Shown here piece by piece: positions 9,761 to 26,232 of a stretch of DNA of 32,713 nucleotides. Position 1 is the stretch's first letter; every line of letters starts with the position of its first letter. Source of the stretch: Ktedonobacteraceae bacterium (GTDB lineage Bacteria; Chloroflexota; Ktedonobacteria; Ktedonobacterales; Ktedonobacteraceae); NCBI GenBank assembly GCA_025928885.1, contig JAICIM010000007.1:1-32713 (forward strand), read 5' to 3'. The notes under the pieces are model-generated. The model saw only the letters and a program-made list of their open reading frames with translations. It searched no databases and had not been told where the DNA came from. The translations under genes and the position numbers were made by a program.

Positions 9761-9836
9761 ATGTAGCGCCAATCTCTTGCAACTGGCGCGGCCCACACCG
9801 ACTTGAGCCGCGCCAGTCACCAGGGAGGTGCTACAT
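9761..9836 (+). repeat. BIME-like composite of family-1 REP (copy A)
   Basis: The ends are inverted repeats ATGTAGC (9761-9767) and GCTACAT (9830-9836). Inside, the 24-nt REP core 9766-9789 pairs GCGCCA with TGGCGC around an apex CTCTTGC. A second hairpin pairs 9782-9792 with 9807-9817 (11 bp, ACTGGCGCGGC). The two stems share 9782-9789 and exclude each other. It starts 9 nt after the PBP stop. Confidence 0.65.
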
Positions 9837-9874
9837 GAGCAGAATCGAAAACTAAAAATACTATGATCTTCCGA

Positions 9875-9926
9875 ACGACAGCCGCAAGGGGATTGTCGCG
9901 AAGACAGCCGCAAGGGCTATCGCTAC
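9875..9926 (-). repeat. Tandem family-1 REPs (copies B and C)
   Basis: Two tandem REP cores read on the minus strand. B (9875-9899) pairs CGACA with TGTCG around CCTTGCGG. C (9898-9926) has the apex CCTTGCGG, a degenerate stem and GTAG at its foot (the complement of 9923-9926). C abuts the -35 of the next promoter. Confidence 0.6.
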
Positions 9927-9954
9927 TTGACGTGTTGAATTCTTCTGGTATACT
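9927..9954 (+). promoter_or_regulatory. Promoter for the FG-GAP-like gene
   Basis: TTGACG (9927-9932), a 16-nt spacer and an extended -10, TGG-TATACT (TATACT 9949-9954). This is a strong promoter 46 nt before the start at 10000. Confidence 0.65.
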
Positions 9955-9999
9955 AAGGAAGAAAATATGTTCTAAATTTTCTAGATCGGAGGAATGGAC

Positions 10000-10668
10000 A
10001 TGGATATGACACATACCAGGAGGCAGTCGCAGCCCATTGCGGACGATGTGATGAACGATGACTCCCTCTATGAGACTCGCATGCCCAGCAGTGTCAGGCG
10101 CTATAAAACATCCTCAACTGCTCAGCGCAACCCCGCTGACGAGCCGATTTCGCGGCAGGGAGCCTTTATCCAGCGCCGGCGCTCAAGTTCTCAGTCAACG
10201 CAGGGCATCGCCTCTAAGGCCATTGCGCCCCCTCGTGAGAGAAGCGAGCAGAGGAGTTTCCCGCTCGTCCCTACAGTTATAGGTATGATTATTACGATTA
10301 TCTTGATTATGAGCTTCAGTCTCGCCAGCACCTGGTGGAACACATATCAGGATGACCTGCACTACGGGCGACCGCGAACCTCACAAATGGATGCTGTGGT
10401 AGGGCATGGTGATAGCGCCAGTAATCCGACGCACTTTATCTTTATGAATCTACGTCGTCATGTGCAAATTATTGAAATTCCCGGCGGCGACCCCAGCCGT
10501 TCGCGTATCTTCATTGGTCCGACACTCTATGGTGATGGTCAGGATTTAACGCCGGTGACCGGCGAGATTCGCGACATTAATGGTGATGGGAAGCTCGATT
10601 TAATCGTCCATATTCAGAATCAACAGGTTATATTCATTAATGATGGCACCACGTTCCATTCGCAATGA
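10000..10668 (+). CDS. Membrane-anchored FG-GAP/EF-hand-like protein
   Basis: A 222-residue protein of unknown function. Residues 1-90 are a polar, Arg/Ser-rich cytoplasmic part, one membrane segment lies at about 92-112 (VPTVIGMIITIILIMSFSLA), and the remaining 110 residues are outside. The end contains GEIRDINGDGKLDLIVHIQN, a DxNxDGxxD calcium-binding loop typical of FG-GAP/VCBS repeats, here as a single copy. Of three in-frame ATGs the second (10000) lies 7 nt from GGAGG (9988-9992); the first is only one base away and is rejected. It follows the PBP gene but has its own promoter. A role in the envelope is inferred from topology alone. Confidence 0.65.
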   Translation: MDMTHTRRQSQPIADDVMNDDSLYETRMPSSVRRYKTSSTAQRNPADEPISRQGAFIQRRRSSSQSTQGIASKAIAPPRERSEQRSFPLVPTVIGMIITIILIMSFSLASTWWNTYQDDLHYGRPRTSQMDAVVGHGDSASNPTHFIFMNLRRHVQIIEIPGGDPSRSRIFIGPTLYGDGQDLTPVTGEIRDINGDGKLDLIVHIQNQQVIFINDGTTFHSQ

Positions 10669-10864
10669 AGCTGCTGCTCGTTGTGGATAATTAACAGAGG
10701 GTATGGTTGAGATGCGAATCGCAGGACGCGAGCATTTCAACTATGCCCTTTGTGTTGTATCCGATCATTGCAAGCATTACCACTTCTGCCTGTTCTTCAT
10801 ACATCCTTAAAATTCATCTGTTACAATATCTCTATATACTCAACAAACAAGGATGGAACGTACC

Positions 10865-11806
10865 ATGAACTCTCCACAAGCAGGTCAGCAAGAGCTGCTC
10901 TATTTCTGGGCTATTGGCGATCTTCATTATCGCACCATTCCAGCCTGGCACGAGCTGCATACCAAGCGCCTCTCTCTTATGTATAATGATCTCCATGCAT
11001 TGTGGAGCAGCGAAGAGGGTAGCCCCACCTTTTGCGTCTCCCCCGGAGATATTGTCGAGACCTGTATTATCGATAATCATCAATTAGCAAAAAAGTGCAT
11101 TGAGGAGCAGCTGGGATCGATCCCCTTTTATCCAGGTGTGGGCAATCATGAATACTACGGTCCCAATGGAGAAGAGCCGACCCTGATGGCTCCCACCTAT
11201 ACGCAAGTCTGGGAGAAGCCGTTGCGCTATAGCTGGCAGGCGGGCGAGACGATCTGTATCATGCTCGATTATCCCGATCCCATGACGCTGAAAGACCCCA
11301 AATATGTTTATCTTTCCGAGGAGGCATTAACTTTTCTCGATACAACTCTGACAGCCCATGCCAATCTGCCAGCGATTATTTTCCTGCACTGCCCGTTGTA
11401 TGATACTGTGTTGGATCGCGATCCCAAACGCCATCGCGACTATAACTCGCTGCAATACTTCTTCTCGCTCGAAAACTCAAAGGAGATACGCGCTATCCTG
11501 GCCCGTCATACAAACGCCTGCCTGTTGTTCAGCGGCCATACGCATTCGGGCTGGCAAGCGCCAAATCTGGTGAAAACGGAGCAACTGGGCCAGCATCCAG
11601 TCACGTTTGTACATTTGATGTCGCCCTGGTATACGGGGACCCACACAGGGCCGAGCCTCAATAAGGGGCGCGTGACCTATGTTCCCGATACGCCGAATGT
11701 TATTCCGACGTTTGCTGTGCGCCTCTTCCCGGAGCAGGCGCTGATTCGTTTACGCGATCATCAGACGCAAACGTGGTTGCAGGAGTGGCGTGTGCCGCTT
11801 AGATGA
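10865..11806 (+). CDS. Calcineurin-like metallophosphoesterase
   Basis: A 313-residue phosphoesterase with the dimetal-site motifs in order: GDLHY (about 18-22), PGDIVE, GNHEYY, LHCPLYD and SGHTHSGW. It has no signal peptide and is probably cytoplasmic; the substrate (cyclic nucleotide, phosphodiester or phosphoprotein) cannot be assigned. The frame includes an ATG at 10853, but AAGG is directly adjacent to it, so 10865, with AAGG 12 nt upstream, is preferred. The 3' end overlaps the convergent response-regulator gene by 8 nt (11799-11806), so no terminator separates the two. Confidence 0.8.
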   Translation: MNSPQAGQQELLYFWAIGDLHYRTIPAWHELHTKRLSLMYNDLHALWSSEEGSPTFCVSPGDIVETCIIDNHQLAKKCIEEQLGSIPFYPGVGNHEYYGPNGEEPTLMAPTYTQVWEKPLRYSWQAGETICIMLDYPDPMTLKDPKYVYLSEEALTFLDTTLTAHANLPAIIFLHCPLYDTVLDRDPKRHRDYNSLQYFFSLENSKEIRAILARHTNACLLFSGHTHSGWQAPNLVKTEQLGQHPVTFVHLMSPWYTGTHTGPSLNKGRVTYVPDTPNVIPTFAVRLFPEQALIRLRDHQTQTWLQEWRVPLR

Positions 11807-12530
11807 CGAAGCGATAGCCGACGCCCCAGACGGTGACGATCTTCTCTCCCAGGGGACCTAGCTTTTTGCGCAGGCGGGTGATATGAGTATCGACGGTGCG
11901 ATCAAAGCCGTCATAGTCATATCCCCACAGCTGTTGGAGCAGAAATTCGCGGCTAAATGCGCGACCGGGATGCGAGGAGAGTAGAACGATCAGATCGAAC
12001 TCTTTCGGTGTCAGATCAATCTTAGCATTATTGAGCTGCACGATGCGCTCGGCGGTATAGATGCGCAGCTGACCATGCACGATTGGTGGTGGAGCTGCTG
12101 GAGTAGCCGGAGTATTGGATGCGAACGTGTTTCCACCGGTGGCAGCTACCGGCGTCAGGCGGCTATCAAGCTCTATACGTCGCAGCAGTGCGCGTACCCG
12201 GGCCTGGACCTCGCGAATGCTAAACGGTTTGCTGATATAATCGTCGGCCCCCACTTCCAGGCCGAGGATGCGATCCACCTCCTCATTGCGTGCTGTGAGC
12301 ATAATGATCGGCGTGAGATGGTTCTGGCGGACGCGGCGGCAGACCGAAAGGCCATCCAGACCGGGCAGCATCCAGTCAAGGATGATGAGATCGGGGTGGT
12401 GCTGCTCAACCTGGCTCAGACCTATATTGCCATCAAAAGCCTGAAAGACAGTATGCCCCTCGGCCTCCAGCTCGTTGCGCAAGAGATTACAAATATCGAT
12501 TTCATCTTCAACGACAAGTATGCGTGCCAT
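11799..12530 (-). CDS. OmpR-family response regulator
   Basis: A 243-residue regulator. The receiver domain (1-120) has the acidic pocket ED (8-9), phospho-acceptor Asp52 (LIILDWMLPG), Thr79 and Lys101 (SKPF). A 30-residue Ala/Pro/Thr linker follows, then the OmpR winged helix (about 150-243: LTPKEFDLIVLLSSHPGRAFSREFLLQQLWGY, VDTHITRLRKKL, VWGVGYRF). The ATG at 12530 has AGAGGATAGG just upstream; the longer frame to 12626 lacks a ribosome binding site. It lies downstream of its kinase on the same strand with a 112-nt gap that has its own promoter-like signals. The stimulus and targets are unknown. Confidence 0.92.
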   Translation of the reverse strand: MARILVVEDEIDICNLLRNELEAEGHTVFQAFDGNIGLSQVEQHHPDLIILDWMLPGLDGLSVCRRVRQNHLTPIIMLTARNEEVDRILGLEVGADDYISKPFSIREVQARVRALLRRIELDSRLTPVAATGGNTFASNTPATPAAPPPIVHGQLRIYTAERIVQLNNAKIDLTPKEFDLIVLLSSHPGRAFSREFLLQQLWGYDYDGFDRTVDTHITRLRKKLGPLGEKIVTVWGVGYRFVI

Positions 12531-12581
12531 CGTCCTATCCTCTGTAGTGTTTACCTGGTTGCAGAGTTTGCTACTCTCCCT

Positions 12582-12615
12582 AGTGTACAACCAGATACCT
12601 CTTGTATACAAGAGG
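12582..12615 (-). promoter_or_regulatory. Promoter and 18-bp palindrome in the kinase-regulator gap
   Basis: CCTCTTGTATACAAGAGG (12598-12615) is a perfect palindrome. On the minus strand it contains TTGTAT (12606-12611), followed by an 18-nt spacer and TACACT (12582-12587), a plausible promoter for the response regulator with an operator over its -35. A weaker stem (AGAGT/ACTCT, 12563-12577) lies downstream. Confidence 0.45.
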
Positions 12616-12642
12616 GCAGGACGCATGGCGTATTGGATGATA

Positions 12643-14151
12643 TTATGCTTGCTGCACTACGTGCTGTGCTGGATGTTGCGGCGGTTGTTGAACCGTCCCT
12701 GCGATCTGGAGCAGGACGCAGAAGCGCGTTCCTTCTCCCACTTTGCTTTCAACGGTGATCGAGCCGTGCATGGCCGTGACAAAATCCTTGACGATCGATA
12801 GGCCCAGGCCGAAGCCGCCAGATGTGCGTGAGCGCGAGGCGTCTGTGCGATAAAAGCGCTCAAAGACGCGCCCGAGATCCTCTGGGGGAATGCCGATGCC
12901 GGTATCTGCGACTGAGAGGGCGAGCGCGTTTGCTCCGGCAGGTTCGAGCGTGATAGAAACGATCCCGCCGTTGGGCGTGTAAGTGATGGCATTGCGTACA
13001 AGATTGAGGAGCACCTGGATGAGCCGTTGACGATCAGCCAGGACGGGTGGCAGTCCAGGCGTGATGGCGCGAACGAGCGTGATCTGCCGGTCGCGCCGTG
13101 CCAGTGGCATCAACGTTTGATAGACCTCCTCAACTACTGTCCCGGCCTCGACCGCCGAGAGGTTCAAACTCAGCTCGTTGGCCTCCGTCTTTGCCAGAGA
13201 GAGCAGATCGTCAACGAGCGAGCCGAGCCGCACGGACTCGCGATGCACGATCGTGAGATATTTCTGCAACGCCTCCGGCGAAGGCGCTTTACTGCTATCA
13301 TCGTCGCTAAAGCCGTTCAGGAGCGATTCGAGATGGCCGCGAATGCTGGCGACCGGGGTGCGTAGCTCGTGTGAGACGTTGATGATCAGGTCGCGCCGCT
13401 TTTGATCGGCCTGTTCCGCTCTGATGCGCTGCTGCTCGGCCAGTGCTTTTGCCTCGGCCAGCCGCAAATCTTTATCGCTTAAACCCAGCATTGTACGAGC
13501 GATCTGACCCCAGGCCCAGGCCATGCCATTTGTGATATAGAGCGGCGCAAAAATGATCCCGCCACCTGTCATCGATATTTCCAACACACGACCAACAGTG
13601 AGGGGGCGCGTTGGTGGTGTGAGTTTCATCGATTGCGATATGATGGTGGAACGCGATCGGCGAGAAGTTCCCGTGATAGAAAATAGCAGAAAAACGAAGG
13701 GCGAAAAGAACGGCCCCAATGAGATCGACACCGCCAGCAGCGCCAGTACCATCGCCAGGGCGCTGAGGGTGATGCAGAATGTGATGGAGCCAATCAACAG
13801 CTTGAGGAAGAGATAGAGCAGGCTCTTCCAGGTTACGCTATTGCTGAGATGAGCGCGTACCCGGTCCCAGAGCGGCTTTGTGTTGTCAACCGGCCCTTCC
13901 ATCGGTGGGATAGGCACGTTGAGCCAGTTGATCGCCATTGTTCGCTCCATCGCCGCCAGTTTCCACCAGAGCCACATGACAAATAGTAGGATGGGAACGC
14001 CCAGCCAGATGACCAGCGTCCCTATGCCGAGCGTGAGGCCCACGGCGAGAAAGACAAAGTAGAACAGGCCCAGCGGAAAAGAGAGCAGCAGATAGCCAAT
14101 GCTGGCGTACGTTTGTTTCTGTATCGTAAGACGATGCAAGCTGGGAATCAT
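12643..14151 (-). CDS. Membrane sensor histidine kinase
   Basis: A 502-residue kinase. Two hydrophobic hairpins (about 15-65 and 110-160) form a multi-pass sensor domain resembling the 'putative sensor' module, without a large extracytoplasmic loop. A coiled linker (about 225-255) leads to the dimerisation domain with phospho-acceptor His261 (NVSHELRTP). The ATP-binding domain shows the N box (LLNLVRNAITYTPNGG), G1 (VADTGIGIP), F box (VFERFYR) and G2 (GFGLGLSIVK). The ATG at 14151 has GAGGG 8 nt upstream; the frame to TTG 14169 is less likely. It presumably phosphorylates the regulator encoded downstream. The cue is probably intramembrane or envelope stress, by inference from the topology. 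Confidence 0.9.
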   Translation of the reverse strand: MIPSLHRLTIQKQTYASIGYLLLSFPLGLFYFVFLAVGLTLGIGTLVIWLGVPILLFVMWLWWKLAAMERTMAINWLNVPIPPMEGPVDNTKPLWDRVRAHLSNSVTWKSLLYLFLKLLIGSITFCITLSALAMVLALLAVSISLGPFFSPFVFLLFSITGTSRRSRSTIISQSMKLTPPTRPLTVGRVLEISMTGGGIIFAPLYITNGMAWAWGQIARTMLGLSDKDLRLAEAKALAEQQRIRAEQADQKRRDLIINVSHELRTPVASIRGHLESLLNGFSDDDSSKAPSPEALQKYLTIVHRESVRLGSLVDDLLSLAKTEANELSLNLSAVEAGTVVEEVYQTLMPLARRDRQITLVRAITPGLPPVLADRQRLIQVLLNLVRNAITYTPNGGIVSITLEPAGANALALSVADTGIGIPPEDLGRVFERFYRTDASRSRTSGGFGLGLSIVKDFVTAMHGSITVESKVGEGTRFCVLLQIAGTVQQPPQHPAQHVVQQA

Positions 14152-14214
14152 AGAACGGCCCTCGACCAATCAATCTATCGAACAATCAAGATACTTTCAA
14201 TGCTTTTTTCTACC

Positions 14215-14264
14215 TGTTACAGGATAGCACGTGGTTGTTGATAGCATATGATCAAAGTGTTACA
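14215..14264. promoter_or_regulatory. Two TGTTACA boxes upstream of the kinase gene
   Basis: TGTTACA occurs at 14215-14221 (inside the palindrome CTGTTACAG) and at 14258-14264, 43 nt apart. They could be regulator boxes in the kinase promoter region. This is tentative. Confidence 0.25.
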
Positions 14265-14310
14265 AAACTGTGACGATTTCGCATCACCATTGCAGGGCAT
14301 TGATACAGAC

Positions 14311-14348
14311 AAAAAGAAGCTCGGCGGAACGTACCCGCCGAGCTTCTT
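14311..14348 (-). terminator. Intrinsic terminator for minus-strand transcription
   Basis: A 14-bp stem (14314-14327 with 14335-14348, core GAAGCTCGGCGG) has a 7-nt loop and is followed on the minus strand by TTTTTGTC. It ends transcripts coming from the aldolase gene about 470 nt upstream and insulates the kinase gene. Confidence 0.8.
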
Positions 14349-14515
14349 TCTAAGACATCCCCTCCTCCATCGTCCCCAATAAATTCCACGATACACGTGT
14401 GAAAGTGATCCTGTCAGTCCTCCCCCACTCAACATACTGTACCGTCCTCTATCCCGTTTCCCCATCACTGCCACCCCAGGAGATCAGAAGACAGCACTCC
14501 TGGTATACTGGCAAG

Positions 14516-14708
14516 TTCTTGCACACCCCTCTTCTCCCTCTGCCATCCTTTAACCATGACCGCATTTCATCTCTAAAAATAAATAACCTACCCGCATCTT
14601 CTACTACCATCTCCAACCGCATCTTCCACCCTCGATCATGAGCAGAACTGTTCCTCCACTAACCGCACTTCCATCATTTCCCCTGGTGCCATCTACCAGG
14701 TTTTTTTC
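14516..14708 (+). ncRNA. Candidate small RNA (unproven)
   Basis: The predicted start follows TGG-TATACT at 14501-14509, and the end is the terminator at 14682-14707, giving about 190 nt. The sequence is C/U-rich and carries CCGCAYYTTC-like motifs starting at 14560, 14592, 14617 and 14663. No family is recognised. The call rests on promoter-like and terminator signals on the same strand with no ORF between them. Confidence 0.3.
14682..14707 (+). terminator. Plus-strand intrinsic terminator without an upstream gene
   Basis: CCTGGT (14682-14687) pairs with ACCAGG (14695-14700) and is followed by seven T (14701-14707). There is no plus-strand gene upstream, which is why a small RNA is suspected. 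Confidence 0.6.
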
Positions 14709-14821
14709 CTCTCGTTTCCTACGCCCATACTATAACATAGAGTCATGACGAACCCATGAATTGATAAGCGTGTATGATGAACAAAAATTCATCTAGAGAG
14801 AAGTGCGGCAATGCATTCACA

Positions 14822-15487
14822 TTACAGATTTTTCATCCGTTGCCAATCTTGCGTAAACTTCTCTACCGCTCGCTCGCTTTCAGGATCTGTCAGGAGGGAG
14901 AGCAGGACCTCTGGCGGCACAGTCAGATCGTGTGCGCCAGCCTGGAGAGCCTCGGCAGCCTCCAAAGACGACTTGATACTTGCGACCAGGATGCGCGAGG
15001 TGAGTTGCTGGCTCTGAAAGAGTTTGGCTATCTGGGCAATGCGTTCGCTGGCATTGACGCCCGAGCGGGCGAGGCGATTGTAATATGGAATGATGAAGTC
15101 GGCCTGGATCATGGCCGCACAATACGCCTGGGCAACCGAGGTGACGGCGGTAAATGCCACGCGATGCCCCTGTTCTTTCAAGCTGCGAGCCACGCGCATC
15201 CCAGTCTTCGTCATTGGAATTTTGGGGATGACGCGCTGTGGTTCGGTCTCGATATACGCGCGTGCCTCCTGCAGCATCTCCCCTTCCCTGGTCGCCCCCG
15301 GCTGAATAAAAACAAGCCCGGATTGTTTGCTCAACAGTGCGGAGAGGAGTTGTGATGGTGTGAGTCGTTGCCCGCGTTCGCTAGCCGCCAGCATAATCGA
15401 CGGATTGGTTGTAACACCAGCCAGAGGCACCGTGCGTCCAACCTCAACGATATCATCAAGGTATCCACAATCGATGTAGAGGGCCAT
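14822..15487 (-). CDS. Transaldolase / fructose-6-phosphate aldolase-like
   Basis: A 221-residue single-domain TIM-barrel aldolase of the short TalC/MipB transaldolase type. GVTTNPS (24-30) and the Schiff-base lysine in IPKIPMT (Lys89) are present, with the barrel strands RVAFTAVTSVAQAYCAA and RILVASIKS. It moves or cleaves a dihydroxyacetone unit in sugar-phosphate metabolism; transaldolase and fructose-6-phosphate aldolase activities cannot be separated by motif alone. AGGAG precedes the ATG. It is divergent from the MaoC gene. Its message probably ends at the terminator 14311-14348. Confidence 0.85.
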   Translation of the reverse strand: MALYIDCGYLDDIVEVGRTVPLAGVTTNPSIMLAASERGQRLTPSQLLSALLSKQSGLVFIQPGATREGEMLQEARAYIETEPQRVIPKIPMTKTGMRVARSLKEQGHRVAFTAVTSVAQAYCAAMIQADFIIPYYNRLARSGVNASERIAQIAKLFQSQQLTSRILVASIKSSLEAAEALQAGAHDLTVPPEVLLSLLTDPESERAVEKFTQDWQRMKNL

Positions 15488-15610
15488 AATTGTTGCTCCT
15501 ATCTCCTTTAAACTCTTCTATAGAAGATCTTTGTTGCAGACATGTTGTTTTGCTTGCAAATATTGTATAACAACAGGAGAGCCGTTATTGGGAAGGAGGT
15601 TGCGCTATCG

Positions 15611-16111
15611 ATGCCAATTAAAGAGGGCTGGCGAGGCCGCTTTTTCGAGGATTTCACGGTTGGTGATATCTATCAACATCTGCTGGGGCGAACAGTGACA
15701 ACTACCGACAATATGTGGTTTACCTTGCTGACGCAGAATACCGCGCCGATCCATTTCGACCATCACTACGCCGCGCAGACCGAGTTTGGTAAACCGCTGG
15801 TTGACTCGACCTTCACGCTGGCGCTGGTGACGGGGCAGAGCGTCGCAGATATCTCGCAGAACGTCTTTGCCAATCTCGGCTGGGACGAGGTGCGCCTCCC
15901 ACATCCCGTTTTCGAGGGCGACACCATTTATTCACAATCGGAGGTGCTGGCGACGCGTGAATCGCGCTCACGTCCGAATGTTGGGATTGTCACGGTCAAG
16001 ACCAGCGGCTATAATCAAGAAGGCGAAATCGTCATTACGTTTAAACGGACCATTATGGTGTATAAACGAGGCCACGCGCCGCAGATTACACGCCTGACAA
16101 TGGAGCAATAG
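15611..16111 (+). CDS. MaoC-family (hot-dog fold) dehydratase
   Basis: A 166-residue hot-dog protein related to MaoC enoyl- or mesaconyl-CoA hydratases. It shows RFFEDFTVGDIYQH at the N-terminus, then the catalytic region TQNTAPIHFDHHYAAQTEFGKPLVDSTFTLALVTGQS, with the Asp-His type dyad, and LPHPVFEGDTIYSQSEVLATRESRSRPNVGIVTVKT. It probably hydrates an enoyl-CoA-type double bond; the substrate is unknown. The frame extends to 15542, but GGAAGGAGG (15591-15599) points to the ATG at 15611. Only 22 nt separate it from the next gene, so the two are an operon. Confidence 0.8.
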   Translation: MPIKEGWRGRFFEDFTVGDIYQHLLGRTVTTTDNMWFTLLTQNTAPIHFDHHYAAQTEFGKPLVDSTFTLALVTGQSVADISQNVFANLGWDEVRLPHPVFEGDTIYSQSEVLATRESRSRPNVGIVTVKTSGYNQEGEIVITFKRTIMVYKRGHAPQITRLTMEQ

Positions 16112-16133
16112 CATAATCAAAGGAGAAGGTGTT

Positions 16134-16853
16134 ATGGCACAATTGAATGGAGCGCAGATTACATGGCTAGGGCATGCCACGTTTAAAGTGACGACGCCCC
16201 AGAACAAAGTTATTTTGATTGATCCCTGGATCGAGGGCAACCCGAAGAGTCCCGCCGAAGCGAAACAGCTTGATCAGGTCGATCTGATCCTGGTCACACA
16301 CGGCCATTCCGACCATATCCACGATGCGGTGCCACTGGCGAAAAAGTTTAACGCGCACGTTCTGGCTATCGTAGAAACGGCCACCTGGATTGGTTCACAG
16401 GGCGTCGAAAACGTGGTCGGCTTCAATATTGGGGGCAGCATCAATGCGCAGGGCATCACGATTTCCATGACCCAGGCATTCCACTCTTCGGGCATCGATG
16501 GCAGCGATCAGACGGTCTATGGCGGCGATCCCGTTGGCTTTGTGATAGAACTGGAGAACGGCCTCAAGCTCTATCATGCTGGCGATACCTGCGCCTTTGG
16601 CGACATGCAGTTGATTCGCGAACTCTATGCCCCCGACATCGCCATGCTGCCAATCGGCGATTTCTATACGATGGGGCCAAAGGGAGCGGCTCTGGCGACG
16701 CGTCTGCTCGGCGTCCAGCACGTCATCCCGATGCACTACGGCACCTTCCCGATCCTGATAGGCACGCCCATGCAACTGAAGGACGAGCTAGTTAAACTGG
16801 GTCTGGAACGCGTTGAGGTAATCGAAATGACTCCGGGGCAGACGATCAAGTAG
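16134..16853 (+). CDS. UPF0173 metal-dependent hydrolase
   Basis: A 239-residue metallo-beta-lactamase-fold hydrolase of the UPF0173 (YtkL-like) family. The N-terminus ITWLGHATFKV and the metal motif THGHSDH (His56, His58, Asp60, His61) are clear, with further ligands in YHAGDT and PMHYGTFP. Length and motif order match the family from end to end. AAAGGAGAAGG lies before the ATG. The biological substrate of UPF0173 is not established. It is cotranscribed with the MaoC gene, which could hint at a thioester or acyl intermediate, but that is speculation. Confidence 0.85.
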   Translation: MAQLNGAQITWLGHATFKVTTPQNKVILIDPWIEGNPKSPAEAKQLDQVDLILVTHGHSDHIHDAVPLAKKFNAHVLAIVETATWIGSQGVENVVGFNIGGSINAQGITISMTQAFHSSGIDGSDQTVYGGDPVGFVIELENGLKLYHAGDTCAFGDMQLIRELYAPDIAMLPIGDFYTMGPKGAALATRLLGVQHVIPMHYGTFPILIGTPMQLKDELVKLGLERVEVIEMTPGQTIK

Positions 16854-16885
16854 AGAGAATATATACAACCCCTTGCCAGGTTTGC

Positions 16886-16891
16886 TATAAT
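16886..16891 (+). promoter_or_regulatory. Extended -10 element for clpP
   Basis: TGC-TATAAT (TATAAT 16886-16891) lies 39 nt before the clpP ATG. The -35 is weak, as often with an extended -10. Confidence 0.5.
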
Positions 16892-16930
16892 CAAGCTTGA
16901 TATGGGTGTTTTCTCGAAAAAGGAGTCAAT

Positions 16931-17596
16931 ATGAGCGCAGCTTCCTCCTCAAATAGCCCTTTATATGGTGCAGGTAGAGCGAGACCCGAAGCTTTCATTC
17001 CCTATGTGATCGAATCGACCCCACGTGGTGAGCGAAGGTGGGACATCTATTCGCGTCTGCTGCAAGATCGTATCGTTATTGTTGGCACGCCCATTAACGA
17101 TCAGATCGCCAGTGCTATCGTTGCTCAGTTGTTGTATCTCGAAAGTGAGGACTCAACACGAGATATCTATATGTATATCAACTCTCCCGGTGGAGAGGTC
17201 TATTCTGGCCTGTCAATCTATGATGCCATGCAGACGATTAAATCGCCCGTTACCACCATCTGTCTTGGTATGGCGATGAGCTTCGGGGCGATTCTGTTGG
17301 CGGGAGGCGCGAAGGGGAAACGCTATAGTTTGCCTAATGCAACGGTGATGATCCACCAGCCATTGGGCGGCGCACGAGGTCAGGCAGCTGAGATCGAGAT
17401 CGAGGCTCGTGAGGCCATCCGTTTGCGCCAGGTGCTCAACGAAATTCTCGCCAAACACACTGGACAAACTCTAGAGCGTATCGCACGCGATACCGACCGC
17501 GACTACTATCTCTCAGCACAACAGGCCGCCGAATACGGTCTGGTTGACGAGGTAATGGAGCTTGACAAGATCGAGGAGCAGAAGCGCGAATCATAG
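16931..17596 (+). CDS. clpP: ATP-dependent Clp protease proteolytic subunit
   Basis: A 221-residue ClpP, the barrel-shaped serine peptidase that pairs with ClpX. The catalytic triad is visible: Ser117 in [11 protein letters not shown], His142 in MIHQPLGG and an Asp (about 191) in [10 protein letters not shown]. The nucleophile context is AMSFG rather than the usual AASMG. The N-terminus is about 20 residues longer than the mature form, which fits a cleaved propeptide. AAAAGGAG precedes the ATG. It is not next to tig and clpX, which lie about 9 kb downstream in this window. It has its own -10 element and a terminator-like hairpin. Confidence 0.93.
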
Positions 17597-17623
17597 CTTG
17601 ATAAACAGGATGTTTTCAAACGT

Positions 17624-17660
17624 AAACCAGGCGGTGCAAATTTCTCACCCCTGGTTTCTT
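17624..17660 (+). terminator. Terminator-like hairpin after clpP
   Basis: AAACCAGG-c-GGTG (17624-17636) pairs with CACCCCTGGTTT (17646-17657), a 12-bp stem with one bulged C, followed by CTTTAT. The U-tract is short. Confidence 0.55.
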
Positions 17661-17678
17661 TATGCCTGATATGGGAAT

Positions 17679-17774
17679 CTCCCGATGTCATAGCCGTGCG
17701 CTTTATCGCATTTTGCCGAAATTGCTGTACATATACAAAAAGCGCGATAAAGCGCACGGCTATGACATCGGGAG
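17679..17774 (+). repeat. Giant inverted repeat (family 3, copy 1)
   Basis: The arms 17679-17709 and 17744-17774 are perfectly complementary over 31 bp, with 34 nt between them that can partly pair further (TTTTG/CAAAA). The inner ten bases CGCTTTATCG/CGATAAAGCG recur in the inverted repeat at 21881-21949; the outer arms do not. The right arm ends inside the ribosome binding site of the methyltransferase gene. Confidence 0.85.
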
Positions 17775-17786
17775 GAAGGATCATCA

Positions 17787-18824: not shown

Positions 18825-18865
18825 TTGCGTGCTATGATCTTTCCAACCAAAGACAATGATGAATT

Positions 18866-18885
18866 TCGAAGTCGCGCGACTTCGA
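18866..18885. repeat. Family-2 palindrome
   Basis: TCGAAGTCGCGCGACTTCGA is a perfect 20-nt palindrome located 42 nt after the methyltransferase stop. It shares the 14-nt apex AAGTCGYGCGACTT with the hairpin at 4244-4277. Confidence 0.6.
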
Positions 18886-19215
18886 CCGGAGAGATCATCG
18901 GATTATCTGTATCTGGTTAAGCCATATATGATCCGCGTTCATGCGGTACAATAGTAGCGATACCATTTCTCTCACTGTTGTAGAGATACTCATCTGCTTA
19001 TTCGGTAAGGAGCATTGCATTGTCTGGCACCTTGCAGCATTACCTGATCCCCGTTCGTATTATTGTACCCTTTTCTGGCTCCTCTGTTCTCTCTCTCTAC
19101 ATGGCTGATGTAAAAAGGGTCAGCGTTGCAAGCAATGTTCGTTCTTTAGTGCGGGCTGGTGGAAGTCTCTTTATCAGGCAGGAAGCATATATATCAGGCT
19201 AGAAAGGTATGGCAC
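18886..19215 (+). other. Intergenic stretch with a possible small ORF
   Basis: A TACAAT -10-like hexamer lies at 18947-18952, and a 60-codon frame at 19020-19202 starts with TTG placed 7 nt after AAGGAG (19007-19012). It ends 13 nt before the hydrolase start, so it could be a leader peptide gene. The translation has no recognised family. Apart from this I see nothing in the stretch. Confidence 0.3.
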
Positions 19216-20151
19216 ATGATAGAGCCACGCAGCGCCTTTATTGATGTTGACGATATCCGGCTCCACTATCTGGAGTGGGACCCGGCCCAATTACTCCCTG
19301 CGCAATCCCAGGGGAGGCGCGACGACGACGCAATTCCTCTTGTGTTGATTCATGGGCTGGGAGCAACTGCCGATACCTGGAGGATGGTTGCGGAACATTT
19401 GTATGATCGGCATCTCGTAATCGCCTTTGACCTGCGCGGACATGGATTGAGCGATCAACCTGTAGATGGCTATGATCTGGTGACGATGACGGAAGATATC
19501 ATTTGTGGTATGGCTGACCTGGGCCTGGGACAGGTGGCGCTGATCGGGCATGGCTGGGGCGCGAGGCTGGCCCTGGTCCTGGCGGCCCGCCATCCAGCTC
19601 TGGTCAGCCATCTCTCGCTGGTCGATTGCCCACATATCGAGCCGAGGCACTGGCCCGGCATGACGCGTGAACGGTTTTTACGTGAAAAATCTTTTGCTGA
19701 TACTTATCCCTCTTTTAAAGAATTTGCCAGAATTATTCGTGAAGAGATCGGCGATGGCCTGTATCCAGATGTGGAGACTATTTTGAGTACCTATGTGCGC
19801 GAACAGCCAGACGGCAGCGTCGAGACCCGTCTGCGCCCCGAATATCAGCGCCAGATCCGCGAGGCGCTCTGGGAGGATCGTGCGCTCTCTTATTATAGCA
19901 AATTGACCTGTCCCGTCTTGCTGGTTCCAGCGGCAGCCCAACCACAACCGGGAGAAGAGCCGCCGGAACGCCTGGAACTGGCAAATGAATTTGCCGCCAC
20001 AAAAGGCTATATCGCGATGCAAGTTGCCCGCACCATTCATCATTGCGTCGTCCATTGGATGCCCGATGCCGCCCACGATATCCAGCTCCAGCGTCCTCAA
20101 CAGCTCGCTCAGACCATCGCAAACTTTATCGATGGAGAAGATCCTCTGTAG
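19216..20151 (+). CDS. Alpha/beta hydrolase fold protein lacking the nucleophile
   Basis: A 311-residue alpha/beta hydrolase of the epoxide hydrolase/dehalogenase-like branch. The oxyanion segment LIHGLGATADTW (about 44-55) and DLRGHGLSD (about 72-80) are normal. The nucleophile elbow reads LIGHGWGARLAL: Gly113 (codon GGC at 19552) stands where Ser or Asp is expected. The general base His appears to be present (DAAHDIQLQRP near the C-terminus), while the acid strand (VLLVPAAAQPQPGEEP) lacks a clear Asp. The protein may be a non-hydrolytic member or pseudoenzyme. The frame extends upstream to 19159, but AAAGG 8 nt before the ATG at 19216 marks the start. The stop codon overlaps REP copy D. Confidence 0.8.
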   Translation: MIEPRSAFIDVDDIRLHYLEWDPAQLLPAQSQGRRDDDAIPLVLIHGLGATADTWRMVAEHLYDRHLVIAFDLRGHGLSDQPVDGYDLVTMTEDIICGMADLGLGQVALIGHGWGARLALVLAARHPALVSHLSLVDCPHIEPRHWPGMTRERFLREKSFADTYPSFKEFARIIREEIGDGLYPDVETILSTYVREQPDGSVETRLRPEYQRQIREALWEDRALSYYSKLTCPVLLVPAAAQPQPGEEPPERLELANEFAATKGYIAMQVARTIHHCVVHWMPDAAHDIQLQRPQQLAQTIANFIDGEDPL

Positions 20152-20231
20152 CGACAATCTCTTGCGGTTGTCGCGGGCAAATTGGCAATATACATGTATG
20201 GGATGCGGCAATCTCTTGCGGTTGCCGCTAC
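20148..20231 (+). repeat. BIME-like pair of family-1 REPs (copies D and E)
   Basis: D (20151-20174) pairs GCGACAA with TTGTCGC and E (20205-20228) pairs GCGGCAA with TTGCCGC. Both have the same apex, TCTCTTGCGG. The unit is bounded by GTAGCG (20148) and CGCTAC (20226-20231). It fills the 5' leader of the amidohydrolase gene and overlaps the hydrolase stop. Confidence 0.75.
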
Positions 20232-20263
20232 GTGAAGCAAAAATTTGGGGTTTTAAAGGCATT

Positions 20264-21877
20264 ATGACGAAAATTCTCTACATGAATGGGACCATCTATA
20301 CAATGGATGCCGCTCTGCCAGTGGCGCAGGCGATGGCGATCGATAGCGCCAGTGGCCGTATTGAGGTGGTGGGAACAAACGATGAGGTGCGGCGCGTGGG
20401 TGGACGTTTTAGCGAGGTTATCGATCTCCACGGCAAAACGGTCCTGCCCGGCTTTATCGATGCCCATATTCACCTCGTCAGCACCGCTTTTCGCGCCTAT
20501 CATATCGATGCCGCCGCCTGCACCAGCGAAGATGAGGTGGCGGAACTGGTACGCGAACGGGCCGCGCAGACGCCGCCGGGTCGCTGGGTTCAGGGGGGGC
20601 AGTGGGATAGAAATCTCTGGGCCAACAGCAATTTTCCCACAAAAGCCTCGCTCGATGCTGTTGCCCCCGATCATCCCGTCGCCCTCTGGAGTAAAGATGG
20701 GCATCTGCTCTGGGTCAATTCGCTGGCCCTACAACGGGCAGGCATTACAGCACAGACGCCCGATCCCTCCACCGGAGCAATTTTGCGCGACGGATCAGGC
20801 GAACCAACCGGCATTTTGCAGGAGGCAGCCGCCACCACTCTTGTCTACGATGTTATTGAAGAGCCGGACGAAGCCTTACGTCGGGCTATGCTCGAACGCA
20901 TCCTGCCGCAGTTGTTACGATCCGGCATCACCACGATACACGATATCGAAGGTGAAGACTCACTCAACCTCTTCCGCCAGTTTCGCGATGAGGGCAGGCT
21001 GGGTTTGCGGGTGCAGATGATCTTGCCGCGACAGCTGCTGCCACGATTGCGCGAACAGGGCATTCAGAACGACGAGAATGACCTGTTGCGGGTGGGTGGC
21101 ATCAAAATCTTTGCCGATGGCACTCTCGGCTCTCAGACCGCTGCTATGCTCGAAAGCTTCGAGGGGAGTCCTGGTAACTACGGTATCCTGACGATCCCCG
21201 AGGCGGAGATGCAGGACGTAGTGAGCGATGCAACCGAAATGGGTCTGACCATCGCCGTGCATGCTATCGGCGATCGGGCCGCGCGAGTGGCACTCAACAC
21301 CATCGAGCGTGCGCAACAGATGCTCGCCGAAGAGGGAACCGTGGCGAACCCTGCGTCGGGCCTGCGCTATCGTTTGGAGCATGTGCAACTGATTGCGCCC
21401 GAAGATCTGGAGCGCATGCGTCGCCTGGGCGTAATCGCCTCGATCCAGCCCTATCATGCCGTTGCTGACCGCGATATCGCCGAACGCTACTGGGGCAAAC
21501 GCCATCGCCGCGCCTATGCCTATCGCACAATGCACGATATGGGGATTCCGCTGGCCCTCGGCTCCGACGCTCCCGTCGAAACCTTCGATCCCCTGACTAT
21601 CCTCTACGCCGCTACCGCCCGGCGCGATCCCTCAAAAACGCGCCCATCCTGGCTGCCCGATCAGGCATTAGCCGTGCGCGATGCTCTGTGGGGCTATACA
21701 ATGGGTGCAGCCTATGCCGGTGCTGAGGAGCAGCGCAAAGGCTCCCTCTCTGTTGGCAGGCTTGGCGACGCGGTTGTGCTTCGTGAAAACGTCTTGAACA
21801 CCCCCCAGGAAAAAATGACAGAAAACGGCGTGCAGGCGACGATCGTTGGTGGAAAGATAGCGTACGGAGAGTTGTAA
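20264..21877 (+). CDS. YtcJ-type amidohydrolase
   Basis: A 537-residue metal-dependent amidohydrolase of the amidohydrolase_3/YtcJ branch. It has the small N-terminal beta-sandwich, then the metal motif GFIDAHIHL (His68, His70), a catalytic-site region HAIGDRAARVAL, EHVQLI and the late Asp in LGSDAPVETFDP. Length agrees with the family (about 530-560). It should hydrolyse an amide or ring C-N bond; the substrate is unknown. The frame is open upstream through the REP pair, but the ATG at 20264 with TTAAAGG just before it and the family N-terminus (ILYMNGTIYTMD) fix the start. Confidence 0.85.
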   Translation: MTKILYMNGTIYTMDAALPVAQAMAIDSASGRIEVVGTNDEVRRVGGRFSEVIDLHGKTVLPGFIDAHIHLVSTAFRAYHIDAAACTSEDEVAELVRERAAQTPPGRWVQGGQWDRNLWANSNFPTKASLDAVAPDHPVALWSKDGHLLWVNSLALQRAGITAQTPDPSTGAILRDGSGEPTGILQEAAATTLVYDVIEEPDEALRRAMLERILPQLLRSGITTIHDIEGEDSLNLFRQFRDEGRLGLRVQMILPRQLLPRLREQGIQNDENDLLRVGGIKIFADGTLGSQTAAMLESFEGSPGNYGILTIPEAEMQDVVSDATEMGLTIAVHAIGDRAARVALNTIERAQQMLAEEGTVANPASGLRYRLEHVQLIAPEDLERMRRLGVIASIQPYHAVADRDIAERYWGKRHRRAYAYRTMHDMGIPLALGSDAPVETFDPLTILYAATARRDPSKTRPSWLPDQALAVRDALWGYTMGAAYAGAEEQRKGSLSVGRLGDAVVLRENVLNTPQEKMTENGVQATIVGGKIAYGEL

Positions 21878-21880
21878 AAG

Positions 21881-21949
21881 GATAACTTGTATTTGCTCGC
21901 TTTATCGTTTTGCGTCGTAAAACGATAAAGCGAGCAAATACAAGTTATC
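21881..21949 (+). repeat. Giant inverted repeat (family 3, copy 2)
   Basis: The arms 21881-21911 and 21919-21949 are perfectly complementary over 31 bp with a 7-nt loop (GCGTCGT). The inner part, CGCTTTATCGTTTT, matches copy 1 at 17679-17774; the outer arms (GATAACTTGTATTTG...) are unrelated to it. It starts 3 nt after the amidohydrolase stop and lacks a T-tract. The remaining gap to 22166 holds no gene. Confidence 0.85.
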
Positions 21950-22166
21950 AGGGATAAGAATATTCTTCCATTATTATCGCACTTTTCTATGCCATCTATA
22001 CCATATTATCTTAACCATATCTAGTCTTTTTCTCCTATGCTTCAGCGTGTTTCATCCGATCTATTATTGTGGATGCGTTAATATGTAGAGCAACAGACAT
22101 TGAAATGTTTGGGGCTGCGAAGCCTGAAGTTGTCTTGTAGTGAAGTAGAGGAGAAGAGGATATCCT

Positions 22167-22877
22167 ATGTATTTGAACGCACAGACACGGCGCTATTTTT
22201 CGGGGCGTCGGCTCATCAGCATCATCGGCGCACATGTGGTTGTCCTGGCTATTCTGGCCGGGGCGTTATTGAGCAGCGGGACCGATCTGCTGGGCGCATT
22301 TGCTCAATCGCCCTGTTCGTCGGGAGATCAGATGTACAAGGTTGCGGGAGGAGATACGCTGGGTGCCATTGCATCCCGCTACAATATGTCCTGGCAGAGC
22401 CTGTCATCCTACAACAAGCTTGCCAACCCGAATGTCCTGTACATCAATCAGCATATTTGTATTCCAGGCAAAGCTACCACCAGCGGCAAGCCGATGACCA
22501 GCAACGTTACTTTAAATGCCAAAAGTGGTGCCGGTAATTTCTTTCCCTATGCTCAATGCACCTGGTTTGCCAATCAGCGCTACCATGAATTGAGCGGGAG
22601 ATATGTTCCCTGGACCACCAATGCCAATGCCTGGCAGTGGGTCACGCGTGCCTATCAGTATGGCTGGAAAGTCTCCAGCAGCCCGTCGGTTGGCTCCATT
22701 ATCGTCTTGCAGCCCTGGACGCAGGGGGCCTATGGACTTGGACACGTGGGCATCGTAGAGCAGGTCAGGGGTAACGGCAGTATCGTCGCCAGCAATATGA
22801 ACTGGGGCGGCAACGGCTCAGCAGTCGTCAACGCCACCTTCCATGCCGGTCCTGGCGTCTCATTTGTCAGCGTATAG
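22167..22877 (+). CDS. Secreted LysM-CHAP cell wall hydrolase
   Basis: A 236-residue exported protein. A signal peptide/anchor (about 18-47, ending near AFAQS) leads to a LysM domain (about 55-100: YKVAGGDTLGAIASRYNMSWQSLSSYNKL and NQHICIPGK) that binds glycan. The CHAP amidase/endopeptidase domain (about 125-236) has its catalytic Cys131 in YAQCTWFANQRY and His193 in GHVGIVEQV, plus the terminal NWGGNG motif. It likely cuts peptidoglycan during growth or division. GAGGAGAAGAGG precedes the ATG. The neighbouring amidohydrolase is not obviously linked in function. Confidence 0.88.
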   Translation: MYLNAQTRRYFSGRRLISIIGAHVVVLAILAGALLSSGTDLLGAFAQSPCSSGDQMYKVAGGDTLGAIASRYNMSWQSLSSYNKLANPNVLYINQHICIPGKATTSGKPMTSNVTLNAKSGAGNFFPYAQCTWFANQRYHELSGRYVPWTTNANAWQWVTRAYQYGWKVSSSPSVGSIIVLQPWTQGAYGLGHVGIVEQVRGNGSIVASNMNWGGNGSAVVNATFHAGPGVSFVSV

Positions 22878-22983
22878 CAATGGAGGTGTGTGCGCGTGTA
22901 TGGTCGAGGTGGCAGGCTTTTCTGGCCCATATTGTCCCTCCCATATGTGAAAAAGCACACGATATATCGATTGCAGAGAAGCA

Positions 22984-23014
22984 AAAAAGAAGCCGAGGCA
23001 GATCCGCCTCGGCT
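22984..23014 (-). terminator. Intrinsic terminator of ppk1
   Basis: AGCCGAGGC (22991-22999) pairs with GCCTCGGCT (23006-23014), and the minus strand continues TCTTTTTT. It lies about 26 nt after the ppk1 stop and may also end the plus-strand CHAP transcript. Confidence 0.85.
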
Positions 23015-23039
23015 CTTTGTTCGCAGGGAATTGAAAAAT

Positions 23040-25220
23040 CTACGCTCTGGACGGGATGGCGCTGATGGTGGTTGTCTCCTGAAGCTCGTCCTCATCCGCC
23101 TCTTCAATCAGAGGGTGTGTGATAAACCAGTCCTGGCTATCAAACGGTTCCTCGTCTGGTGCGGGCAGAATGGGAACGTAGGAGCCATCGGGCAGTAAAC
23201 GATGGGCATTGGCCGTATCTTGCGAGATAGGGTCCAGCACACGCTCTTTGAGCGCCTTGCGGAGCGTGGGCGAATTGACCGGGAAGACGACCTCGACGCG
23301 GTTATTGAGGTTGCGTTGCATCAAGTCGGCGCTGCCCAGATAGATCTCTTCCTGACCATTGTTGCCGAAGTAATAGATTCGACTATGCTCTAAGAAGCGC
23401 CCAACAATGCTGCGCACGCGAATATTCTCGCTGATCCCCTCAATGCCCGGACGCAAGCAGCACATGCCACGAATAATCAGATCGATTTGTACCCCCGCCT
23501 GCGATGCCTGGTAGAGCAGACGGATCATCGCTGGATCGGTCAGCGCGTTGGTCTTGAAGATGAGCCGCCCGTTGCCGTATTGTTCATGCAAACGAATCTC
23601 GCGCTCGATCCGCTCAGCTATGCCACGCCGCAATCCCAGCGGCGCGACCAGCAATTTGCGATAGATGTTTTGCCGCGAGTGGCCGGTGAGCGAATTGAAG
23701 AGCGTTGTCACATCCGAGCAGATCTCCGGCTGGCAGGTGAGCAGGCAGAGGTCTTCGTAGATGCGGGCCGTCGTCGCGTTATAGTTGCCAGTGCCGAGAT
23801 GCACGTAGCGATGCAGGCCCCGCTCCTCTTTGCGCACAACCATTGCGACCTTTGCATGCGTTTTCAAGCCCTTGAGTCCGTAGACCACATGTACTCCAGC
23901 TCGCTCTAGCTTCTTGGTCCACTCGATGTTGTTCTCCTCATCGAAACGGGCCTTTAGCTCGACCAGCACGGCCACCTGCTTGTTGTTCTCAACCGCTTCG
24001 AGCAGCGCGTTGACCACTGGAGCGTTAACCCCTACACGGTAGAGCGTTTGCTTGATCGCCAACACGTGTGGATCGTTGGCGGCGGCACGAATGAAATCAA
24101 CGACCGTGCTAAAGCTGTCGTAGGGATGATGCAGCAACAGATCGTGATCTTTGATTGCATCGAAGAGTTCGGAGGTTCTGGGATGGTGCTCACCTTTTTT
24201 GCGCAAGAACGCTGGCACCCGTGGCGTGAACGGCGTATCTTTCAACTCCGGGTGCTCTAGCGAATGCAGCTCCATCACATCGCCCAGCCCCAGCGGGCCA
24301 TCGATGACTGAAAGGTCGCGCGAACCGATCTCCAGACCATCCAGCAACAGGCTGCGGATGCGCGGCGGCATTGAGGGATTGACCGCCAGATCGACCACCG
24401 CACCAAAGCGACGCTCTTTCACTTCTTGCTCGATATATTCGAGCAGATCGGAGGCGTCGTCCTCCTGTAGCTCGATATCGGCATCGCGCAGGACGCGGAA
24501 AGGATACGACTCCCAGACCTCGAAGCCCGGAAAGAGCATGCCCAGGTGGGCCGCGATCAGTTGTTCCAACCAGACAAAGGCGACGACCTGCGGATCTTCT
24601 ACCGCAACAGGGACCGGGACCAGGCGCGGCAACAGTGGTGGAGGTGGCACCTTCACGCGGGCAAACAACTCTTCTCCGTGCGTTGGATCGCTGATCACAA
24701 CGGCTAGATTGAGGCTGCGATTTGAGATATGCGGGAAGGGATGATGGACCGCATCAACCGCCAGTGGAGTGAGAACCGGAAAGACCTCATTCTCAAAGTA
24801 ATCGCGCATGGCTGAGCGCTGCTCATCGTTCAATTGTTCGTAATCGAAGATATGAATGTGTTGCTCGGCCAGCAGGGGCAACAGCTCATTGCGCCAGTAC
24901 TGACGAACTTCCTGTACCAGCGGGGCCAGTCGCTGCCGCACAGCGATTAACTGTTGCTCGGCTGTACGACCATCAGGACTGCGTGGTGCAGTTCTCGATA
25001 CAACCTGATCTTTCAGGCCAGCGAGCCGAATCATAATAAATTCATCAAGATTGGTTTCAAAGATAGAGATGAATTTCACCCGTTCGAGCAGCGGATGGCG
25101 GTTATCTTGCGCCTCCTGAAACACGCGACGATTGAACTCAATCCAGCCTAACTCACGATTGATATACAGATCTGGTCTCTCTAACTCTGTTGAGGATAGT
25201 GGCAATGTTTTCTGATCCAT
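23040..25220 (-). CDS. ppk1: Polyphosphate kinase 1
   Basis: A 726-residue PPK1, which reversibly builds inorganic polyphosphate from ATP. All four domains can be followed. The N-terminal helical domain begins with YINRELGWIEFNRRVFQEAQD, and HPFPHISNRSLNLAVV starts the head domain. The two phospholipase-D-like catalytic domains contain the autophosphorylated His in YVHLGTGNYN and the second His in FLEHSRIYYFGN. The IKQTLYRVG and IRGMCCLRPG motifs are intact. Two start codons are possible; the ATG at 25232 directly abuts GGGA, so 25220 is preferred. The C-terminal 40 residues are acidic and outside the conserved core. Confidence 0.93.
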   Translation of the reverse strand: MDQKTLPLSSTELERPDLYINRELGWIEFNRRVFQEAQDNRHPLLERVKFISIFETNLDEFIMIRLAGLKDQVVSRTAPRSPDGRTAEQQLIAVRQRLAPLVQEVRQYWRNELLPLLAEQHIHIFDYEQLNDEQRSAMRDYFENEVFPVLTPLAVDAVHHPFPHISNRSLNLAVVISDPTHGEELFARVKVPPPPLLPRLVPVPVAVEDPQVVAFVWLEQLIAAHLGMLFPGFEVWESYPFRVLRDADIELQEDDASDLLEYIEQEVKERRFGAVVDLAVNPSMPPRIRSLLLDGLEIGSRDLSVIDGPLGLGDVMELHSLEHPELKDTPFTPRVPAFLRKKGEHHPRTSELFDAIKDHDLLLHHPYDSFSTVVDFIRAAANDPHVLAIKQTLYRVGVNAPVVNALLEAVENNKQVAVLVELKARFDEENNIEWTKKLERAGVHVVYGLKGLKTHAKVAMVVRKEERGLHRYVHLGTGNYNATTARIYEDLCLLTCQPEICSDVTTLFNSLTGHSRQNIYRKLLVAPLGLRRGIAERIEREIRLHEQYGNGRLIFKTNALTDPAMIRLLYQASQAGVQIDLIIRGMCCLRPGIEGISENIRVRSIVGRFLEHSRIYYFGNNGQEEIYLGSADLMQRNLNNRVEVVFPVNSPTLRKALKERVLDPISQDTANAHRLLPDGSYVPILPAPDEEPFDSQDWFITHPLIEEADEDELQETTTISAIPSRA

Positions 25221-25232
25221 ACGGTCTTGCAT

Positions 25233-25609
25233 TCCCTGTTAGTTGTTCTACATTGTGATGTTATTCCGCGTCTGTATGCAGGTGCGGAGATCGGTGTACA
25301 CCCGGCTAATCAAATTACCTGTGTGCATACTTTTTGGAAACGTGATAAAATATGATTTCGCTTCCCTCTCTGGTAAGGAGACCTGAAGCAGAAATATGAT
25401 GAGTAGTTATCGAGAGGCGCTAACAATTTCATTGTATCATGTTCTTGTCTAAGAATGCAAAGAGCCGGGAGGTGCAGAGAGAACAGTGGTAGCCTGGAAT
25501 GGTAAAACTAAAAAATTGTCTTGACAGTACCCCTGTCGCTGATGTATTATCCACAAGTAAGAACCATGTAACCTGGAAATCTTTATCGTTGAAAGAACGC
25601 GTAAAGAAT
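25233..25609. other. Gap between ppk1 and the tRNA genes
   Basis: No coding frame is supported here. A 172-codon minus-strand frame covering the tRNAs is their antisense shadow. The stretch holds the ppk1 upstream region and the tRNA promoter at 25521-25550. Confidence 0.6.
25521..25550 (+). promoter_or_regulatory. Consensus promoter for the tRNA genes
   Basis: TTGACA (25521-25526), an 18-nt spacer and TATTAT (25545-25550), 60 nt upstream of tRNA-Leu. A perfect -35 fits a stable-RNA promoter. Confidence 0.75.
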
Positions 25610-25695
25610 GGGCGGTTGCTGAAATTGGTAGACAGGGCAGACTTAGGATCTGTTGGTGATGAACCGTGAGAGTTCGAGTCTCTCACCGCCCACCA
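25610..25695 (+). tRNA. tRNA-Leu (anticodon UAG)
   Basis: Acceptor arms GGGCGGT/ACCGCCC close the molecule. The anticodon loop CTTAGGA (25642-25648) gives UAG, which reads CUA and related leucine codons. A long variable arm (class II) and the T-loop GTTCGAGTC are present. The 3' CCA is encoded (25693-25695). Length 86 nt including CCA. Confidence 0.93.
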
Positions 25696-25838
25696 CCTGT
25701 TGCATGGAAGGGCCAGGATCAAACGTATTTCCATATTTCGACCGCTGAAGTGGAAACTGATGGTTGAGAAGCAATTGTGATTGAAAGAAAAGAAATAGGG
25801 AGATTTGAGATTCTGTCCTCTTATTAATGCACAATTAA

Positions 25839-25910
25839 GCGGGAGTGGCTCAGTGGTAGAGCACTTCCTTGCCAAGGAAGATGTCGCGGGTTCGAATCCC
25901 GTCTCCCGCT
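25839..25910 (+). tRNA. tRNA-Gly (anticodon GCC)
   Basis: Acceptor arms GCGGGAG/CTCCCGC, a D arm with GCTCAGTGGTAGAGC, anticodon loop TTGCCAA (25869-25875) giving GCC, and T-arm GCGGGTTCGAATCCCGT. The CCA end is not encoded (the genome reads CCG), unlike the neighbouring tRNA-Leu. Probably cotranscribed with it. Confidence 0.93.
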
Positions 25911-26157
25911 CCGAATTGTCTAGGCAGAGGGCCGTGATTTTATGCAAATGAAAGAGCGGCTTCTCTTAATGGGCAAGTGCATATGTACGCGACCCACACG
26001 AGACATAGATCACAACGCTTTGCAGCATGCAAATTTGCTCGTACTACTAGCTCAGTTGTGGGGTGGTCTATGGGTGGTGATTGCCTCTTTGTACTTCCCA
26101 CTGTCTTTTTTGCACACGGATCTTGTCTATAGATCTCAACGAACAATAGGGGTATGC

Positions 26158-26189
26158 TTGACAGCCCCTTTTAGTATACATAGTATACT
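26158..26189 (+). promoter_or_regulatory. tig promoter with repeated AGTATAC box
   Basis: TTGACA (26158-26163), a 17-nt spacer and TAGTAT (26181-26186). The -10 lies in the direct repeat TAGTATACA/TAGTATACT (26172-26180 and 26181-26189), whose second unit contains the palindrome AGTATACT. This looks like an operator. Confidence 0.55.
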
Positions 26190-26205
26190 CACGTCTGTAC
26201 CACTA

Positions 26206-26232
26206 GTAGCGACAAACCCTTGCGGTTGTCGT
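26206..26232 (+). repeat. Family-1 REP (copy F) in the tig leader
   Basis: A GTAG foot (26206-26209) is followed by GCGACAA (26209-26215) pairing with TTGTCGT (26226-26232), with apex CCCTTGCGG. It lies about 45 nt before the tig start. Confidence 0.65.

Follow-up and report, generated by a model that had tools for sequence, protein, structure and literature searches.

Hairpins that recur between the genes of a 32,713-nt stretch of DNA from a Ktedonobacteraceae bacterium (the window; contig C65 of a genome of 6.6 Mb in 764 contigs, 85.7% complete) very probably belong to a GTAG-type REP family whose copies form REPINs that are moved by a RAYT transposase. Six such hairpins (A to F) had been pointed out in the earlier note as intergenic, and all six are present at intergenic positions, with coordinates that shift slightly once the GTAG foot is counted in. 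A seventh, a degenerate partner of copy A, had been missed. GTAG is found in five of the six (A, C, D, E on the minus strand, and F), not in four as previously counted, and B alone is without it. The copies in the window are:

9763–9789, plus strand: REP copy A, GTAGCGCCAATCTCTTGCAACTGGCGC; stem pair 4 is C-G; covariance model E 3.3e-7
9810–9834, minus strand: degenerate inverted partner of A, with CTAC at its end; read from the sequence
9872–9902, minus strand: REP copy B, without GTAG foot; covariance model E 4.9e-4
9903–9926, minus strand: REP copy C, a rearranged copy that retains the GTAG foot and has GACAGCCGCAAGGG in common with B; read from the sequence
20148–20174, plus strand: REP copy D, a consensus copy; covariance model E 4.1e-10
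20202–20231, minus strand: REP copy E, loop-flipped: its GTAG is on the minus strand, whereas its loop reads on the plus strand; G-C at stem pair 4
26206–26232, plus strand: REP copy F, a single copy; covariance model E 2.2e-8

The repeat and its hairpin structure

The consensus of the window family, including the foot, is GTAGCGACAAtCCCTTGCGGTTGTCGC; the repeat can also be written GTAGCGACAAYCCCTTGCGGTTGTCGC. Allowing up to three mismatches, its 24-mer core occurred 58 times in the genome compared with once for the reversed pattern, indicating that the core is far above chance. A genome search with a covariance model had been called for in the earlier note; such a model (R1), built from 44 distinct copies, found 69 copies in the whole genome, confirming that the family extends well beyond the window. 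It recovered copies A, B, D, E and F with E-values from 4e-10 to 5e-4. Copy C, which is too rearranged to give a match at E ≤ 1, was identified by eye. The only Rfam matches in the window were two tRNA genes (25610–25692 and 25839–25910).

The hairpin consists of a seven-pair stem (GCGACAA/TTGTCGC), a bulged base, two further pairs and a five-base loop, with the apex CCCTTGCGG. The one-base bulge is supported by an apex variant, GCCTTGCGC, in five copies. Across the 44 distinct copies, 96% of stem cells were paired and compensatory changes occurred at three pairs: A-T/C-G/G-C at pair 4, and C-G/G-C and C-G/U-A inside the bulge. At pair 4 the window itself shows all three states (C-G in A, A-T in D and F, G-C in E), so the covariation noted there before holds. 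Changes on both sides of a pair were seen in 9 cells, compared with a mean of 1.9 after shuffling; stem pairing and covariation clearly exceeded both shuffled and slid controls, the slid controls being far lower. Among 54 aligned copies, the foot reads GTAG in 41 and GTCG in 5. As a GTAG-footed palindrome present in many dispersed, mainly extragenic copies, the window repeat is a GTAG REP.

Doublets between genes

Whereas 87% of bases lie in crudely called open reading frames (ORFs), at most 11 of 54 copies overlap one. Three window copies are among these 11, and they fall in mechanical upstream extensions or in ORFs without a family match. Many copies lie no more than ∼25 nt from a stop codon, and in about six the GTAG provides the TAG stop of the adjoining called ORF. 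In the window, the TAG stop of an alpha/beta-hydrolase ORF (19159–20151) comes from the GTAG of copy D, an amidohydrolase starts at 20264, downstream of D and E, and F lies 45 nt before the gene for trigger factor (26278).

The copies are frequently paired. Among 15 neighbouring pairs at 50–60 nt, nine are head to head and another three keep GTAG at either outer end despite one flipped loop; tail-to-tail pairs are absent. In the window, D and E together make up a doublet of 84 nt whose outer ends both carry GTAG. As the degenerate inverted partner at 9810–9834 carries CTAC, A is likewise one half of a doublet, head to head and ∼72 nt long. Spacers between the two halves are related across loci (mean z 1.9; z > 3 in 24 of 120 pairs), whereas the outer flanks beyond GTAG are unrelated (mean z 0.3; 6 of 450 above 3). 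Together with the pair geometry, this suggests that copying acts on the whole doublet of ∼80–84 nt, in line with the definition of a REPIN (PMC3116915), and on these sequence features the doublets of the window family are predicted to be REPINs. Loop-flipped members in which GTAG still lies outside were found at 20202–20231 in the window, at 486–515 in L011 and at 1498–1527 in L019; they look as if the apex of the hairpin had been inverted.

Alternatively, the repeats could be fixed cellular hairpins (mRNA-stabilising elements, attenuators or terminators) that are kept at gene ends and are no longer mobile. The many copies within ∼25 nt of a stop codon would suit such roles, which have been proposed for REPs (PMC3733652). 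However, a T-rich tract was present in only 4 of 54 copies on one side and 3 of 54 on the other, on which ground we rejected terminator identity for most copies. Moreover, copies occur in both orientations, and doublets of ∼83 nt, in which the spacers are related but the flanks are not, resemble a copied unit. We therefore consider fixed hairpins improbable and favour mobile REPINs.

Such a REPIN would be a non-autonomous miniature element of ∼80–84 nt, in which two REPs are joined in inverted orientation and each outer end carries GTAG. In single-stranded DNA, such as the lagging-strand template, a REP would fold into the bulged hairpin; a RAYT, an HUH tyrosine transposase, would then read the GTAG foot, cut beside it and carry the whole doublet to a new intergenic site. 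These steps of binding, cutting and transfer are known from work on TnpA-REP of E. coli, Stenotrophomonas and Marinomonas (PMC8266576). By analogy, a RAYT would also move the family of the window.

RAYT genes in the genome and across the class

The only RAYT found in the assembly is an intact gene for a protein of 180 aa (G000:C304:4460–5002, locus L125), which surfaced only with the NCBIfam model NF047646 (REP_Tyr_transpos; E 4e-11), its score of 42.9 bits being under the curated cut-off of 80. A six-frame search of the genome with Y1_Tnp (PF01797) missed it and returned only an IS605-like remnant. The protein contains HMH as HUH motif, YIINNP with the tyrosine, and WQPNYYDHIVR, which corresponds to WQxxxxDHxxR; W, Q, E/D, H and R are listed as the GTAG-contact positions (PMC6006769). 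With HUH motif, catalytic tyrosine and GTAG-contact residues in place, the gene is predicted to encode a RAYT (TnpA-REP). A profile of ten RAYT proteins also matched the solved E. coli TnpA-REP 4ER8 (E 5e-10). A search for close relatives of the protein gave matches scattered among phyla, none of them in a named representative of the class.

This RAYT is flanked by another REP family. Upstream of it, GTAGCCGCGCGACTTtATCGCGC occurs three times in direct and once in inverted orientation (L125 887–1076), representing a second GTAG REP family (GTAGCCGCGCGACTTTATCGCGC) with ∼356 copies in the genome compared with 3 for the control, typical doublets of 74–76 nt and no copies in the window. The contig stops 2 nt past the RAYT stop codon. 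Many second-family copies are located at the ends of contigs. As at least 28 of the 100 exact copies listed begin no more than 150 nt from a contig start, the assembly evidently breaks at such doublets, so that a RAYT lying between them can readily drop out. An alignment search at E ≤ 10 detected no other RAYT in the assembly. No RAYT was found next to the window family, which hence forms no REPtron in the present assembly, itself incomplete and broken at such repeats. The cognate RAYT may be missing from the assembly or may have been lost, or the RAYT of the second family may act in trans.

A decayed IS605-like element with a broken tnpA and a tnpB-like ORF downstream is present at L021 1326–2758 (G000:C386). 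This remnant with its adjoining tnpB-like ORF could speak for a different origin, in which the repeats are MITE-like derivatives of IS200/IS605 moved by an ordinary TnpA (Y1) and not by a RAYT. However, its tnpA has an internal stop codon and a scan of the locus revealed no copy of the repeat; moreover, the GTAG foot and the head-to-head doublets are the pattern of RAYT and REP. We thus regard an IS200/IS605 origin as very improbable, and movement by a RAYT remains our preferred explanation.

The window family is nearly private to its genome, with one weak match among 100 relatives. A scan for the exact pattern gave no match in the contigs of named genomes, indicating that the exact repeat is in no named relative. 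REPs that share the CCCTTGYGG apex with the window family but differ in a stem base were detected in 11 further genomes of the class (controls, 0), with up to 80 copies in G034. In two relatives, a RAYT lies between copies of such same-apex REPs, forming a REPtron: GTAGGGGCGACCCTTGCGGTCGCCC at L121 (G013) and GTAGGGGCGTACCCTTGTGGTCGCCC at L182 (G034:C62). A RAYT at L119 (G017) has exact REPs on either side whose family numbers 62 copies in that genome, and other GTAG REPs lie on both sides of RAYTs at L122 (G008), L188 (G013) and L193 (G030). Each RAYT of the class having its own GTAG REP is the expected pattern. The low-scoring Y1 matches of the order (L091–L109) were mostly IS200-like or uninformative. 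As the relatives searched include no genome of the same genus, no empty site or excision is demonstrable. Accounting for these results, the RAYT-driven REP system proposed in the earlier note stands in that there is a GTAG REP family, with RAYTs in the genome and in many relatives of the class; its expectation of a RAYT flanked by the same repeat is borne out for same-apex REPs at L121 and L182, but not for the window family, as the RAYT of this genome adjoins another REP family.

Two further kinds of loci were observed. L193 (G030:C55, ∼1300–2370) has a RAYT-like gene with dense GTAGCGCCGCCATCYTGGCGGC hairpins on both sides, some of them within the mechanical start of the ORF. In genus g13 (L130, L131, L137, L194 and L195; ∼1316–2241), a RAYT-derived protein has neither of the HUH histidines (PQQVQ or similar in their place) nor the catalytic tyrosine, and is conserved in five species with a dN/dS of 0.10–0.20. 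The protein appears to be a catalytically dead, domesticated RAYT.

GTAG REPs of Chloroflexi are already known from Thermomicrobium roseum (GTAG-23; Di Nocera et al. 2013, PMC3733652), so the novelty claimed earlier was overstated, and the window family adds another member. Like the GTAG REP superfamily described there, it is a short GTAG-footed palindrome with alternative complementary stem residues, forms head-to-head dimers 20–100 nt apart, can supply GTAG as the stop codon of flanking ORFs, a trait recorded by the same authors, and occurs in a genome with RAYTs. It differs in its stem, GCGACAA/TTGTCGC, its one-base bulge and its apex, a comparison that excludes the 24 consensus sequences of that study. 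As in the REPINs of Pseudomonas fluorescens SBW25 (Bertels and Rainey 2011, PMC3116915), an inverted REP doublet with its spacer would be what replicates, and a RAYT is present in the same genome. In contrast to the SBW25 elements, which are spaced 71 or 110 nt, the window family has a start-to-start distance of 50–60 nt and a unit of ∼83 nt; moreover, no cognate RAYT was found for it, and its status as a REPIN derives from sequence. With the REP/TnpA-REP system of E. coli (Corneloup et al. 2021, PMC8266576), the family shares a bulged imperfect palindrome and the GTAG foot, and the RAYT of the genome shares the HUH, Tyr and WQ....(E/D)H..R residues; however, the E. coli REP has an AA-GC mismatch, whereas the window family has a one-base bulge and an unrelated loop. 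Overall, with two REP families in one genome and several RAYT subgroups that have their own REPs, the class harbours a full RAYT/REPIN ecology, of which we found no report in the literature for this class of Chloroflexota.

Palindromic flanks of the elements

In 97 non-redundant elements from both families, we compared the outer flank on the left with that on the right, deriving the expectation from mismatched flanks. An inverted repeat directly at the element ends scored at least 6 in 11 elements (0.5 expected) and at least 9 in 8 elements (0.04 expected). The flank arms are 7–15 bp long and their sequence differs by locus, as in CGATAAGGTCTTTC[REP]GAAAGACCTTATCG. Elements centred in inverted repeats of 10–15 bp are:

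L215, 194–222
L298, 36–120
L206, 176–351
L233, 152–225
L207, 200–286
L205, 383–459
L082, 1022–1051
L015, 1498–1580

L204 (211–285) and L210 (106–163) were taken out of this set: in each, the right flank repeats the left one almost perfectly in inverted orientation as far as the contig end, and both are probable assembly fold-backs. That the abundance of the repeats is itself an artefact of metagenome assembly has next to no chance of being right: although contigs often end at palindromes and these two fold-backs reach a contig end, dozens of copies are internal to contigs, with different genes around them, and the near-complete relative G017 (7 contigs, 62 copies) has the same kind of REP/RAYT system, which refutes such an origin for the family as a whole. 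None of 33 REPs of G017, whose units are built differently, had palindromic flanks.

Palindromic targets with a fixed consensus have been recorded for the REPs of T. roseum and A. variabilis (PMC3733652); for locus-specific ones we found no description in the REP literature. One tentative explanation, which we hold to be possible but rather doubtful, is that REPINs insert at the tip of any local hairpin, the target being a single-stranded fold and not a sequence, in which case the fixed-consensus targets of those two species would be a special case. Palindromes grown after insertion by template switching would fit as well. The exact abutment of the arms agrees slightly better with template switching than with insertion at a hairpin tip; conversely, the A/T tracts around some arms (L215, L298, L207) agree with terminators that existed before insertion. 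The locus-specific palindromic flanks make the target choice of a RAYT testable within one genome.
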